From Gloeomargarita sp. SRBZ-1_bins_9 (GTDB taxonomy: Bacteria > Cyanobacteriota > Cyanobacteriia > Gloeomargaritales > Gloeomargaritaceae): a stretch of DNA of 64,000 nt. Numbering within the stretch: position 1 is the first letter of the stretch; each line of letters begins with the position of its first letter. Positions 11,652-45,545 of the stretch are shown here, in pieces. The stretch is taken from positions 124,001 to 188,000 of the forward strand of contig JAUQVX010000002.1 in the NCBI GenBank assembly GCA_039794565.1, in the 5' to 3' direction. The position numbers and the translations under genes are program-made. Under the pieces are notes generated by a model. It searched no databases and was not told the DNA's origin. It saw only the letters and a list, made by a program, of their open reading frames with translations.

Positions 11652-12680
11652 ATGCAAACCTACGGAGAGACGGATGTGACCTATGGTTGGTGGGCGGGGA
11701 ATGCCCGTTTTGCCAACTTGTCGGGGTTATTTATTGCCGCCCATGTGGCCCAAGCAGCGTTAATGACCTTTTGGGCGGGGGCGTTTACGTTATTTGAAAT
11801 TTCTCGCTTTAATCCCGACCAACCGATGGGGGAACAGGGTCTGATTTTGCTGCCCCATTTGGCGACGTTGGGATGGGGTGTGGGGGAAGGTGGTCAGGTG
11901 GTGGATACCTATCCCTATTTCGTGGTGGGGGCGGTGCATCTGATCGCGTCGGCGGTTTTGGCAGCGGGTGCGTTGTTCCACACGTTCAAGGCGCCGGAGG
12001 ATTTACAAACGGCCACGGGTTGGGCTAAGCGTTTTCATTTCGCCTGGGATGACCCCAAACAATTGGGCATCATTTTGGGGCATCATTTGTTGTTTTTGGG
12101 GGCGGGGGCGTTGTTGCTGGTGGCCAAGGCCTGTTGGTGGGGTGGTTTGTACGATGCATCCATCCATAGCGTCCGTTTGGTGACCCAACCAACGCTCAAT
12201 CCCCTAGTGATTTACGGGTATCAAACCCACTTTGCCCAGTTGGACAATTTGGAGGATTTAGTGGGGGGGCATATTTATGTGGGGCTGATGCTCATTGGCG
12301 GCGGCATTTGGCATATTTTGGTTCCCCCCTTAAATTGGGCGCGGCGGGTGCTGTTGTTTTCCGGGGAAGCTCTGTTGTCCTATGCCCTGGGGGGGATTGC
12401 TCTGGCGGGGTTTGTGGCGGCCTATTTCTGTGCGGTGAACACCTTTGCCTACCCGCCGGAATTTTACGGCCCGCCCCTGGAGGTGAAGCTGGGTATCACG
12501 CCCTACTTTGCCGACACGGTAAAGCTTCCCTACGGTACGTACACGTCCCGGGCCTGGCTGGCCAATGCCCACTTTTTCCTAGCCTTTTTCTGCCTGCAAG
12601 GTCACCTGTGGCATGCTCTACGGGCGCTGGGGTTTGATTTCCGACGGGTGGAACGGGCTTTGAGTTCGTTGCAGATTTAG
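11652..12680 (+). CDS. isiA: Iron-stress chlorophyll-binding protein IsiA (CP43')
   Basis: Six-helix chlorophyll a antenna protein that forms rings around photosystem I during iron limitation. The 342-residue product begins [20 protein letters not shown] and carries family segments [44 protein letters not shown] and [16 protein letters not shown]. It lacks the large lumenal loop of CP43, as expected for IsiA/Pcb. A strong Shine-Dalgarno (GAGGAGGT) precedes the ATG. The flavodoxin gene follows after 69 bp, the classical isiAB order, and the region upstream carries a Fur-like palindrome. Confidence 0.96.
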
Positions 12681-15796: not shown

Positions 15797-16423
15797 ATGG
15801 GTGTTCGGGTTCGGCAGCACGTCAATCCCCTAAGTCGGCATTTTTGGGAACCAGTACCGCTTCCTGATTGGCAGTCAATTTATGCCCAACTCCACCAGCC
15901 GTTACACATTGATATTGGCTCAGCTAGGGGGGTGTTTTTGCTCAAAATGGCCCAGCAACAACCCCAGTGGAATTTTTTAGGCTTGGAAATTCGTCGCTCC
16001 CTGGTGGACTATGCCAATCAGCAAAAAACAGCCTATGGTTTAACCAACCTGCACTTTCTGTTTGCCCAAGTGAACGCGCATCTGCCAGCCATCCTGGAGA
16101 GTCTGCCGACAGGGGTTTTGCAGCGGGTGACGATTCAGTTTCCCGACCCTTGGTTCAAACGCAAACAACGCAAACGCCGCATCGTCAAACCGGAATTGGT
16201 GGCGGTCATTGCCCAGTATTTGCAACCAGGGGGTGAGGTGTTCCTACAGTCGGATGTGCAGGAGGTGGCCCTGGAAATGGTGGAGTTTTTTCGCCAGCAG
16301 CCGGCGTTTGTCCTGGTGGGGGAACACCTGCCGGACAATCCCCTGGGTATTCCCACGGAACGGGAACTGTCGGTGCTGCGGCGGGGATTGCCGGTGTATC
16401 GGTTTTTGTTCCAACGGCGATGA
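15797..16423 (+). CDS. trmB: tRNA (guanine-N7-)-methyltransferase
   Basis: SAM-dependent enzyme that makes m7G46 in tRNA. From the ATG at 15797 it is 208 residues; a TTG at 15785 would add four. Motifs: HIDIGSARGVFLLKMA (SAM binding), NFLGLEIRRSLVDYA, IQFPDPWFKRKQRKRRIV (substrate loop) and FLQSDVQEVA. It sits next to two tRNA genes and overlaps the ketoacyl synthase gene by 4 bp (ATGA). Confidence 0.95.
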   Translation: MGVRVRQHVNPLSRHFWEPVPLPDWQSIYAQLHQPLHIDIGSARGVFLLKMAQQQPQWNFLGLEIRRSLVDYANQQKTAYGLTNLHFLFAQVNAHLPAILESLPTGVLQRVTIQFPDPWFKRKQRKRRIVKPELVAVIAQYLQPGGEVFLQSDVQEVALEMVEFFRQQPAFVLVGEHLPDNPLGIPTERELSVLRRGLPVYRFLFQRR

Positions 16424-17526
16424 CGGCTGTGGTAGGGATGGGGCTGGTGTCGGCCCTAGGACCGGATAAGTACCGTAGCTGGCAGCGTTTACTAGACGGT
16501 GATACCCCCATCCGGGTACGGCAACCCTTTGCCCACATTCCCCCGGCCCCGTTGGCTATGGTGGCCGATGCCCCGGCAGACCCCCGTCGGCTCTTGCTCA
16601 TGGCACTAACGGAAGCCCTGCAGGATGCGGGGTGGACATTGCCCTTGCCGGATTGTGGGGTGGTGATTGCCTCCAGCCGGTGTGAGCAGGCGGTGTGGGA
16701 GCAATGGCTCGCAGGACAACGCCAGGACTTGGACCGCTGGCTGGACCACCTGCCTGGACGTTGGGCTGGTTGGGTGGCGGCTAAGGTGGGGGCCAAAAGT
16801 TGGGTGGCAGCACCAATGGCGGCCTGCGCTTCTGGCATCTGGGCGGTGGCAACGGCGATGGAATGGCTGCGCCGGGGGGATTGCTCACGGGTGATCGTAG
16901 GTGCGGTGGATGCGGCCATTACGCCCTTAACGCTGGCGGGATTCCGGCAAATGGGGGTGCTGGCGACGGAAGGCTGCTTTCCTTTTGACCAGAAACGCCA
17001 GGGCCTGGTGCTGGGGGAGGCGGCAGGGGTGTTGTTGCTGGCGGCTGAAGCTCTGCCCAAATACGGCTGGATTCGAGGCTGGGGATGCACCTGTGATGCC
17101 GATAGTCCGGTAGCCCCTAGTGCCGATACCGCTGCTGCCCAACAGGCCATCCAAACCTGTTTGGCCCTGGCCGGTCTTGCGCCAGCAAGCTGTGACGCTA
17201 TTCACACCCACGGCACCGGCACGCCCCACAATGACCGGCGGGAGATGCAACTCATTCAGCAGCTTTTTCCTGAGTCTGTGGCGCTGCTGGCCACTAAAGG
17301 GGCAACGGGGCACACGTTGGGGGCGGCGGGCTTGGTCAATGTCATCTTCTCGCTGCTGGCGCTGCACACCCAGATGTTGCCCCCTTGTGTGGGGTTGACC
17401 CAGCCGGCGTTTCCGGGCCGGTTTGTCCGCCGCGCCCAACCGGCAACGTTCCAATTCATCCTGAATTTGAGTTTTGGGTTTGGGGGCCAGAATGGGGCGG
17501 TGTTGGTGGCTCGCGCCGGGGCGTAA
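16420..17526 (+). CDS. Beta-ketoacyl-ACP synthase, FabF-like (short)
   Basis: Thiolase-fold condensing enzyme of the KAS II type. The full C-H-H triad is present: C136 in AACASG, H264 in HTHGTGT and H298 in KGATGHTLGAAG. At 368 residues it is shorter than FabF (about 410), with a compressed N-terminal region. It is probably a second, specialised KAS and not the housekeeping FabF, which is not in this window. Its start overlaps the trmB stop (ATGA), and its 3' end overlaps cbiG-cobJ by 71 bp. Confidence 0.85.
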   Translation: MTAVVGMGLVSALGPDKYRSWQRLLDGDTPIRVRQPFAHIPPAPLAMVADAPADPRRLLLMALTEALQDAGWTLPLPDCGVVIASSRCEQAVWEQWLAGQRQDLDRWLDHLPGRWAGWVAAKVGAKSWVAAPMAACASGIWAVATAMEWLRRGDCSRVIVGAVDAAITPLTLAGFRQMGVLATEGCFPFDQKRQGLVLGEAAGVLLLAAEALPKYGWIRGWGCTCDADSPVAPSADTAAAQQAIQTCLALAGLAPASCDAIHTHGTGTPHNDRREMQLIQQLFPESVALLATKGATGHTLGAAGLVNVIFSLLALHTQMLPPCVGLTQPAFPGRFVRRAQPATFQFILNLSFGFGGQNGAVLVARAGA

Positions 17527-43344: not shown

Positions 43345-43548
43345 TCAGTTCCCCGCATCTAAGGTGTCTAACCAAGCAAACACCCGGTCTAACTCATCCA
43401 AACTGATCAACCCGTAGCGCCACAAAACGATGGGCAACGGCCCCTGACCGGAATCCTCCCGGCGTAAAGCCATCTCAATCGAGGCCGCCGATACCGCCAA
43501 CTCCTCCTGCAAAAAACGAATCAACCGCTCATCCCGTCCCGATAGCAT
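43345..43548 (-). CDS. DUF2949 family protein
   Basis: A 67-residue cyanobacterial protein. The family pattern is visible in LIRFLQEELAVSAASIEMALR and GPLPIVLWRYGLISLDELDRVFAWLD. Function unknown, probably a small helical regulator. It ends one base from the stop of the convergent SH3 gene. Confidence 0.75.
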   Translation of the reverse strand: MLSGRDERLIRFLQEELAVSAASIEMALRREDSGQGPLPIVLWRYGLISLDELDRVFAWLDTLDAGN

Positions 43549-43847
43549 CCCTCTTCCCCTGCCGCAGCGACCCAGTTCTGAGAACCTTAGCGCAAGACGC
43601 CCACAATCGTATCCACAGCTTAACGTAATTTTACAGAGGGATCAATAATTTTTGTAAAGATTATGAGAACAGCCCCTGTTGCTGGTTCAGCCGCGGGGTT
43701 AGGGTCAGTGCGCCGGCCAAGTTGCCGGAATGGCCTGGGATGGGGGTGTTGCCCCCGGGAGAATTACGCAGAGACGTTGGCCCTATTGTCCCCAGACAAC
43801 AGTAAATTTACGGATATAACTATAAAAATTTCTCATAAAACGTCCCC
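43549..43847. other. Gene-free interval with two GC hairpins
   Basis: About 300 bp with no convincing protein gene. It contains an AT-rich stretch (43620-43665), then a GC-rich segment with two perfect hairpins: CCGGC/GCCGG (43713-43728, 6-nt loop) and GGGGG/CCCCC (43742-43756, 5-nt loop). A second AT-rich stretch follows (43800-43845). A 62-codon open frame from 43663 crosses the hairpins and resembles no family. A small RNA is possible but unproven. Confidence 0.35.
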
Positions 43848-43853
43848 TTGACA
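43848..43853 (+). promoter_or_regulatory. -35-like box of the small-ORF unit
   Basis: A perfect TTGACA. The region 17-18 bp downstream is occupied by the palindrome at 43864-43876 and has only a poor -10 match, so the promoter is tentative. Confidence 0.35.
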
Positions 43854-43863
43854 TTACACAGAA

Positions 43864-43876
43864 GTAGAAATTCTAC
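43864..43876. promoter_or_regulatory. 13-bp palindrome, candidate operator
   Basis: GTAGAA, one central A, TTCTAC: a perfect inverted repeat placed where the -10 region of the TTGACA promoter would lie. It is consistent with a repressor site for the two small ORFs downstream. No known regulator consensus is recognised. Confidence 0.4.
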
Positions 43877-43921
43877 GGTGAATATACCTTAAGCCTTATT
43901 TCCGCTGAGGAGGGATATGGA

Positions 43922-43987
43922 ATGCAGGACCTCTGTGCTTTGGTTGAGGTCTTACCTGTTGGGAACCGTCTTCGAGCAAAGTTATGA
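43922..43987 (+). CDS. Very small ORF (21 aa), leader-like
   Basis: ATG at 43922, seven bases after a very strong ribosome site GAGGAGGG (43907-43914). The product starts MQDLCALVEVLPVGN and has 21 residues. Its stop overlaps the start of the next ORF as ATGA. An ATG at 43917 in another frame is too close to the ribosome site. Either a leader peptide for coupled translation or a micro-protein. Not recognised. Confidence 0.4.
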   Translation: MQDLCALVEVLPVGNRLRAKL

Positions 43988-44145
43988 CCCAGCCGCCGCC
44001 ATCGGTTAACCGGGAAGCTATTATTCAGCAAATTATCCAAATTTGTCAAGTTTTGCCATCGGAATCCCTGCTGGAGGTGCTCAATTTTGCTATCCATGAA
44101 CTGGCGCGGGTTTTGCAGGCCCAACAGGGGGAAACGGGTCGGTAA
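43984..44145 (+). CDS. Small helical protein (53 aa)
   Basis: ATG at 43984, coupled (ATGA) to the 21-codon ORF. The product is polar at both ends, with an amphipathic helical middle (REAIIQQIIQICQVLPSES and LLEVLNFAIHELARVLQAQ). The heptad-like hydrophobic spacing looks like a genuine folded or dimerising peptide. No family recognised; the size resembles small antitoxin-like or adaptor proteins, but that is only a guess. murF begins 32 bp downstream. Confidence 0.55.
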   Translation: MTQPPPSVNREAIIQQIIQICQVLPSESLLEVLNFAIHELARVLQAQQGETGR

Positions 44146-44177
44146 AATGCAAAAAAACTGGGCTTGGGGTGTAATGG

Positions 44178-45545
44178 GTGTTACGATTGGAACAACTGAT
44201 TTCTATTTTGGGAGCCACACCCAGCGGAATCCTGCGGGGGACGGTCCACCGTATTAGCACTGATAGCCGGCGGGTGCAACCGGGGGATGTGTTTGTGGCC
44301 CTGGTGGGGGAGCGTTTTGATGGGCATGATTTTGTGGCGGCGGCGTTGGCCCAGGGCGCTGTAGCGGCGATTATCCACCGGCGGGATTTACTGACCCCTG
44401 ATCAGCCCCTGCTGTGGGTGCCGGATACGTTACAGGCCTATCAAACCCTGGCGGCTTGGTGGCGACAGCGGTTTGCCATACCGGTGATTGCGGTGACGGG
44501 TTCGGCGGGCAAGACTACCACCAAGGAATTGATCGCGGCGGTGCTGTCCCAGTATGGTCGGGTGCTCAAAAGTGCGGCCAACGAAAATAACGACATCGGC
44601 GTGGCCAAGACTCTGTTGCAATTGCGACCGGATTACGATTATGCGGTGGTGGAAATGGGGATGCGGGGGCGGGGACAAATTGCCCGTTTGGCGCGCATGG
44701 CCCAGCCCCAGGTGGGTGTCATTACCACTGTGGGCACGGCGCACATCGGTCAGTTGGGGTCGCGGGAGGCCATTGCCCAGGCGAAATGTGAGTTGTTGGC
44801 GCACCTGCCCCCTCGGACGGGTACGGCGGTCTATTGGCGGGAAAATGCGCTGCTACACCAAACGGCCCAGGCAGTGTGGGACGGGGCGACCTATACCTAT
44901 GGGTTAACCCAGGGGGATTTGCAGGGGCGGGTCGAGGGCCATGAACTGGTCATTGGCGATTGGCGTTATCCGTTACCTTTGCCGGGGGAACACAATGCCT
45001 GTAATTTTCTGGCAGCGCTGGCGGTGGCCCAGGTATTGGGTTTGCCCTGGCGCACGTTGTCCCAGCCTTTGGCCGTGGATTTACCGACCGGTCGCAGTAC
45101 CTGGCAACCATTGGCGCCGGATATTCTCCTGCTGGATGAAAGCTACAACGCCAGCCCGGAAGCGGTGTGTGCGGCTCTGCAAACCCTGAAACAACAACCG
45201 GGGAGGCGTTATATCGCGGTGCTGGGGGCGATGCGGGAGTTGGGGGAGCAATCGGCGGCGCTGCATCGGGAGGTTGGGCAATGGGTGCGGGCGTTGGGTT
45301 ATGACTGCCTGATCCTGTTAGATGACCCGGAAGTAGCGCCTCTGGCAGAAGCGGCCCAGCCGGTTACCACTGAATCCTACGCCACGACCGACCAGATCAC
45401 GGCGCGATTGCTCAGTCTGCTGCAACCGGGGGACCGGGTGCTGGTCAAGGCCTCCCGCAGTGTGGGGCTAGACCGGGTGGTGCAGGCCCTGACCCAGCAT
45501 GACCAAGGCATCTCGCAGGGCCATCGTCAGGGCTTGGGTGGCTGA
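44178..45545 (+). CDS. murF: UDP-MurNAc-tripeptide-D-alanyl-D-alanine ligase
   Basis: ATP-dependent ligase adding D-Ala-D-Ala to the peptidoglycan precursor. 455 residues from a GTG at 44178. Motifs: STDSRRVQPGDVFVAL, the P-loop AVTGSAGKTTTKE, NENNDIGVAKTLL, VVEMGMRGRGQI, GEHNACNFLAALAVA and LDESYNASPEAV. An overlapping ATG at 44174 is in another frame. Its 3' end overlaps plsC by 78 bp, and the last residues (after QALTQHD) look like read-through tail. Confidence 0.95.
   Translation: MLRLEQLISILGATPSGILRGTVHRISTDSRRVQPGDVFVALVGERFDGHDFVAAALAQGAVAAIIHRRDLLTPDQPLLWVPDTLQAYQTLAAWWRQRFAIPVIAVTGSAGKTTTKELIAAVLSQYGRVLKSAANENNDIGVAKTLLQLRPDYDYAVVEMGMRGRGQIARLARMAQPQVGVITTVGTAHIGQLGSREAIAQAKCELLAHLPPRTGTAVYWRENALLHQTAQAVWDGATYTYGLTQGDLQGRVEGHELVIGDWRYPLPLPGEHNACNFLAALAVAQVLGLPWRTLSQPLAVDLPTGRSTWQPLAPDILLLDESYNASPEAVCAALQTLKQQPGRRYIAVLGAMRELGEQSAALHREVGQWVRALGYDCLILLDDPEVAPLAEAAQPVTTESYATTDQITARLLSLLQPGDRVLVKASRSVGLDRVVQALTQHDQGISQGHRQGLGG

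Follow-up and report, generated by a model that had tools for sequence, protein, structure and literature searches.

Introduction

MerR-type promoters, whose regulators (COG0789) include CueR, ZntR, CadR and PbrR, are familiar chiefly from metal and drug resistance. In such promoters a palindrome lies within a spacer of 19 or 20 bp, and the MerR-family proteins shorten the effective spacing (PMC1526738). The promoter upstream of ORF2 and murF in the Gloeomargarita genome studied here (G000) resembles them in its -35 box TTGAC(C), 20-bp spacer, -10 box TANNNT and, less clearly, a partial dyad centred in the spacer, and sequence models match its promoter element to promoters of cyanobacterial merR genes. 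It differs from them in that the genes predicted to be controlled are a small ORF (ORF2) and murF, a core cell-wall gene, rather than a metal or drug resistance gene, in that the dyad is degenerate and in that the candidate regulator gene lies elsewhere.

Parts of the locus also recall other described systems. The antitoxins of the DUF2281 family (PF10047, COG5559) share with ORF2 a helix-LPPE-helix hairpin and an E(V/I)L(N/D)FA motif, but ORF2 lacks a toxin and the C-terminal tail, falls below the Pfam cut-off and has an invariant FAIHEL end of its own. A listing for Synechocystis pairs DUF2281 proteins, as antitoxins, with PIN toxins (PMC4963859). Like coupled upstream ORFs and leader peptides, ORF1, which precedes ORF2, is short, is led by a Shine-Dalgarno (SD) site and closes at the ATGA of the next start; unlike them it has neither a conserved peptide nor an attenuator, and the architecture is present in a minority of relatives. 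Finally, ORF2 resembles the lineage-specific small proteins that head housekeeping operons in being short, confined to a single genus, without a family and in fixed synteny with a core gene. It departs from them in having a recognisable, predicted regulated promoter that is common to an ABC exporter and to ybeY.

Gloeomargarita is the reported sister lineage of plastids. The window, a stretch of 64,000 nucleotides from one genome of this genus, contains a locus that, judged by its sequence, is best interpreted as a murF operon under a promoter of the MerR type, headed by a small protein that is new and specific to the genus, and not as an artefact. If this is true, the essential peptidoglycan gene murF would be under a MerR-type switch in the lineage reported closest to plastids. 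This reading also points to a single candidate regulator, unusual in combining MerR with pentapeptide repeats, and to a few candidate targets. ORF2 itself represents a conserved small-protein family that is new to domain libraries.

ORF2 is a conserved gene adjacent to murF

The genes and sites at this end of the locus are as follows.

43345..43548, minus strand: DUF2949 gene, a divergent and conserved neighbour (Pfam PF11165, E 2e-24; position kept in 7/7 genomes)
43984..44145, plus strand: ORF2, encoding a 53-aa predicted helical-hairpin protein, a genus-conserved gene (kept in 7/7 Gloeomargarita genomes)
44143..44148, plus strand: TAAAAT overlapping the ORF2 stop codon (invariant in 7/7 genomes)
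44178..45545, plus strand: murF, UDP-MurNAc-tripeptide D-Ala-D-Ala ligase (Pfam Mur ligase M, C and N domains)

The sample comprised seven Gloeomargarita genomes (that of the window and six relatives) and one genome of a sister genus (G007); close relatives included Gloeomargarita sp. SKYG116 (L066) and Gloeomargaritales cyanobacterium VI4D9 (L067). ORF2 was recovered from all six relatives (E 1.2e-22 to 8.6e-15, 62-80% identity) with internal stops absent, and 20 positions are invariant across the seven genomes, mostly within IC..LP.ESL.E.LNFAIHEL..V. The pN/pS ratio was 0.17-0.43, with synonymous sites at or near saturation for most genome pairs, and the variable columns numbered 25, 17 and 46 of 51 at codon positions 1, 2 and 3, respectively. 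Because the protein is conserved in seven genomes, ORF2 is far beyond chance; it is a genuine Gloeomargarita-specific small-protein gene under purifying selection. The first-pass annotation had regarded the 53-residue product as real and helical, and both its conservation and the two helices predicted for it (see below) bear this out. Non-conservation or broken frames in relatives, which that annotation had named as grounds for discarding the pair of ORFs, were found for ORF1 but not for ORF2.

The order DUF2949(-)/ORF2/murF/plsC(-) is the same in all seven Gloeomargarita genomes, which upholds the proposed synteny with murF; beyond this block, gene order differs in most of them. In every one murF adjoins ORF2, and in the window it begins with a GTG at 44178, 32 nt past ORF2, with no terminator-like site found between the two genes. 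The TAAAAT at the ORF2 stop, for which no -35 box was recognised, is possibly the -10 box of a second, separate promoter closer to murF.

ORF2 is absent from 23 other cyanobacterial murF loci, including that of the sister genus, and a profile search of 390 genomes gave no convincing homologue outside Gloeomargarita (the sister genus and 382 other cyanobacteria). Nor was it found in the plasmids, phages and viral contigs searched. Weak class-wide matches (the best outside the genus at 9e-6, in G343) were set aside, since they proved to be either proteins of the DUF2281 kind or ORFs in surroundings unrelated to those of ORF2.

The promoter has a conserved 20-bp spacer

Upstream of ORF2 the following elements are present.

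43821..43837, plus strand: A/T-rich upstream element TATAAAAATTTCTCATA, a possible UP-like element (from the alignment of promoters)
43848..43853, plus strand: -35 box TTGACA (TTGAC invariant in 7/7 genomes)
43851..43872, plus strand: predicted MerR-type operator region within the 20-bp spacer (imperfect dyad whose centre lies 14.5 bp from where the -35 box begins)
43864..43876, plus strand: 13-bp palindrome GTAGAAATTCTAC, perfect 6+1+6 (judged coincidental, not conserved)
43874..43879, plus strand: -10 box TACGGT (TANNGT), 20 bp downstream of the -35 box

The TTGACA box, the perfect 13-bp palindrome, the SD site with 7-nt spacing and the ORF1-ATGA-ORF2 junction of the first-pass annotation are all present as it described them. 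Its placement of the -10 region on the palindrome had to be revised. When the divergent intergenic regions were aligned, they were found to keep the A/T-rich element, CTTGAC(C), 20 bases, TANNGT and then TAC; the conserved -10 box is therefore TACGGT at 43874-43879 and not the palindrome, which straddles the spacer and this box. All seven murF promoters have the 20-bp spacer, as do the promoters of an ABC exporter (see below). Across the 12 aligned promoters the T, A, G and T positions of the TANNGT box are invariant, and the A/T-rich element stands at a constant distance from the -35 box in the seven murF and five exporter promoters. The arrangement TTGAC-x-N20-TAxxGT occurs only once in the window.

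The best dyad centre was 14.5 in each of four promoter groups (murF, abc, ybeY and merR). The window copy matches at 5 of 11 dyad pairs, murF promoters as a group at 3-7 of 11 (weak) and exporter promoters at 7-8 of 11 (clear), compared to a random mean of 2.76. Since the dyad of the murF promoters is weaker than that of the exporter promoters, MerR binding at murF could be weak or lost.

Related sites lie before an exporter and merR genes

Two sequence models of the promoter were used, R1 built from the seven murF promoters alone and R2 from the murF and ABC-exporter sites. In the window's own genome R1 found a second strong site (8e-8) before an ABC exporter. Four relatives carry orthologues of this exporter site; G005 and G006 yielded none.

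G000, contig C6, 109741-109804 (L126): ABC-exporter promoter site TTGACC-ttgcagttgggtgcaatgtt-TAAGGT (orthologous sites L127-L130; TTGACC-N20-TANNNT with a clear dyad)

Weaker R1 sites lie before operons of a small ORF and ybeY; others, in G002 and G007, immediately precede genes of the merR family. The small ORF that precedes ybeY (50-68 aa) is a second one, unlike ORF2, with a related promoter of approximately 21-bp spacing (L131, L132, L165, L171), and Pfam gave no family for it. A weak match (E 0.24) at G000:C7:44943-44983 (L167) reads TTGACC-N20-TAAGAT and lies 63 bp before a response regulator-kinase-like fusion.

R2 was run over 145 cyanobacterial genomes, and 23 loci outside the family were examined together with 69 control loci. 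A MerR-family ORF lay beside the site at 19 of the 23 loci compared to none of the 69 controls. R1 also scored 19 of the 23 loci found by R2 and none of 46 control loci, but this is a consistency check and not an independent search because the 23 loci had first been picked with R2. Matches of R2 that fell within coding sequence (L166, L169, L170, L172) were dropped as regulatory sites.

A MerR-pentapeptide fusion is the candidate regulator

The window's own genome contains exactly one MerR-family gene above the cut-off of two Pfam models, and it encodes a fusion to pentapeptide repeats (PF00805, E 8e-35).

G000, contig C2, about 15927-16946 (L173, L135), same contig as the window and outside it: MerR-pentapeptide-repeat fusion gene

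The fusion is kept in 7/7 Gloeomargarita genomes, and a similar one is present in the distant cyanobacterium G056 (L180). Among the MerR proteins found with the models, those of L196/L201 are closest to it (41% over the HTH region); their genes lie behind TTGACC-ttgaagttgggtataaggtt-TAGGCT, close to the exporter site of the window's own genome. No site of the TTGAC-N20-TANNGT type was found as the fusion gene's own promoter, and the part of the literature that was covered contained no paper on a MerR-pentapeptide fusion in cyanobacteria. Whether or not the fusion is the regulator of the ORF2-murF promoter seems to us evenly balanced.

That the ORF2-murF promoter is of the MerR type is, on the evidence of the spacing and of its kin sites, likely. 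ORF2 would then open a transcription unit that continues into murF, both genes presumably being cotranscribed. In the ground state the overlong 20-bp spacer between TTGACA and TACGGT would make the promoter weak; a MerR-family dimer that occupies the spacer and has its signal bound would twist the DNA, realign the boxes and raise transcription of ORF2 and murF. The MerR-pentapeptide fusion, if it is the regulator, would control the ABC exporter too. The explanation as a whole, with genus-specific ORF2 leading an ORF2-murF unit, a MerR-type promoter and the fusion as likely regulator, is the one that we favour, with somewhat less assurance than the MerR reading of the promoter itself. A wider scheme, in which a MerR-pentapeptide regulon joins ORF2-murF, the ABC exporter and, in some species, the small ORF and ybeY, and in which ORF2, with its antitoxin-like hairpin, tunes MurF, is speculative and rather unlikely to hold in full.

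The same promoter might be an ordinary constitutive housekeeping one whose 20-bp spacer arose by chance, with ORF2 a plain small protein in a murF operon under no MerR control. A core gene such as murF needs steady expression, the dyad at the murF site is degenerate and the gene of the MerR fusion is itself without a site, all of which would suit such a promoter. Chance does not readily account for the 20-bp spacing and the half-site letters, which are kept in seven genomes despite synonymous sites at or near saturation, nor for models of the element that reach merR-linked promoters across cyanobacteria (19/23 vs 0/69). We consider a constitutive promoter improbable, though it is the strongest competitor of the MerR reading. 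In line with the first-pass annotation, a regulated-looking promoter precedes ORF2; ORF1 and the palindrome are unconserved.

ORF1 and the palindrome are not conserved

ORF1 and its ribosome-binding site lie between the promoter and ORF2.

43907..43914, plus strand: Shine-Dalgarno-like GAGGAGGG (7 nt to the ORF1 ATG at 43922)
43922..43987, plus strand: ORF1, 21 codons, a species-specific upstream ORF, possibly translated (peptide not conserved)

Palindromes of the class seen here number 17 in the 64-kb window (P=0.03 per 141-bp stretch of this composition), and there are 32 ATGA-coupled ORF pairs (at least 15 and at least 50 codons); an SD-like site accompanies 11 of these. The palindrome and the ATGA coupling are therefore unremarkable alone, and conservation had to decide. 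When the palindrome was sought upstream of the orthologues, 2 of its 6 arm pairs were found broken in the nearest relative and it was lost from the others; being unconserved and frequent by chance, it was ruled out as an operator. NtcA-type palindromes read GTA-N8-TAC, and an NtcA-type site was likewise rejected because the palindrome in the window is GTA-N7-TAC, of the wrong spacing and unconserved. A palindrome that catches the eye can thus mislead; the conserved signal at this locus is the unusual distance separating two plain boxes.

A leader-peptide system, in which translation of ORF1 would govern ORF2-murF through coupling or attenuation, had also been suggested. The predicted anti-SD pairing is strong before ORF1 (-12.4 kcal/mol) and negligible before ORF2 (-2.2 kcal/mol), and a GGAG-type site occupies a similar position in 6/7 Gloeomargarita genomes, as such a system would have it. 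The ORFs behind these sites tell otherwise. An SD-led upstream ORF with an ATG start is present in four of the seven genomes, and the peptides (21 aa in the window, 8 in G004, 25 in G002 and 24 in G003) are unrelated, with neither a conserved peptide nor conserved regulatory codons found. G001, G005 and G006 have no SD-led ATG ORF of useful length that ends at ORF2, and that of G004 stops 52 nt short. The exact ATGA junction into ORF2 exists only in the window's genome and G003. In G002 (L004, L102) and G004 (L006, L099) a second SD-led ATG is instead in frame with ORF2 and would extend it to 81 and 83 aa, respectively, suggesting that the N-terminus of ORF2 may differ between species. Cys codons are abundant in the short upstream ORFs there. 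No terminator was found, the leader RNA folded no better than shuffled sequences (z 0.29) and Rfam gave no family at the ORF1-ORF2 locus. Because the ORF1 peptide is unconserved and the ATGA junction is found in only 2/7 genomes, the leader-peptide proposal is unsupported, and we consider it very unlikely. At most, ORF1 may be translated in this species and deliver ribosomes to the start of ORF2, which has no SD of its own; as a leader it is not conserved.

ORF2 is predicted to form a helical hairpin

AlphaFold modelled ORF2 as two helices (residues 10-23 and 26-51; pLDDT 84.6). On helix 2 the hydrophobic and polar faces are both invariant (E27, E31, N34, F35, H38, E39), so the product, as modelled, probably binds a partner. 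MurF or another envelope protein is the simplest guess for that partner. That ORF2 acts on MurF is doubtful, and its role as a MurF-linked adaptor is a guess held with low confidence.

As the first-pass annotation had reported from the sequence, the 53-residue product belongs to no recognised family: Pfam, NCBIfam, PADLOC and PHROGs gave no match above cut-off, and a search of the PDB by sequence gave nothing significant. Foldseek of the ORF2 model against the PDB also gave no match, as is expected of a two-helix protein. Weak matches to PPP2R1A-like HEAT and BlhA (best E 0.0018 and 0.0082) were far below the family cut-offs and were rejected; they fit a generic amphipathic hairpin.

The annotation had further considered an antitoxin-like unit. 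ORF2 carries the N-terminal LPPE..EVLDFA hairpin of the DUF2281 type, and against profiles of same-genus DUF2281 proteins, which were picked with the Pfam model independently of ORF2, hhalign gave a score of 30.3 over 23-24 columns; 300 column shuffles reached no more than 19.3. This likeness, taken with the DUF2281-PIN toxin pairing in Synechocystis (PMC4963859), would allow ORF2 to be a DUF2281-type antitoxin, or the remnant of one, from a toxin-antitoxin pair. The Pfam model itself (PF10047, gathering score 26.5 bits) matched only one of the seven ORF2 members, at E 0.39 and short of that gathering score, and gave no DUF2281 hit in the window's own genome. True DUF2281 genes of G002-G004 (L106, L107, L108, L110, L113) directly precede PIN-like ORFs, whereas ORF2 is flanked by murF and DUF2949 in 7/7 genomes. 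An active toxin-antitoxin pair is refuted by the absence of a toxin beside ORF2, and because ORF2 also lacks the C-terminal part that true members have, it was not assigned to DUF2281. Only the resemblance of the hairpin is left of the antitoxin proposal, and that ORF2 is such an antitoxin or the remnant of one appears highly improbable. That ORF1 and ORF2 are both chance reading frames, which is effectively true of unconserved ORF1, has a negligible probability given the conservation of ORF2 in 7/7 genomes, its pN/pS well below 1 and its excess of variable third codon positions (46/51).

Several minor features were noted around these genes. A strongly conserved stretch at 43632-43679, AGCTTAAC..TAATTTTACA..GATCAATAATTTTTGTAAAG, lies upstream of the divergent DUF2949 gene and is probably its promoter. 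On the minus strand within ORF2 (44020-44049) a near-consensus promoter-like sequence, TTGACA-N18-AATAAT (11/12), lies antisense to the gene, and its -35 letters are lost in relatives. Elsewhere in the window, Rfam identified IsrR, the antisense RNA of isiA, on the minus strand at 12045-12222 (106 bits).
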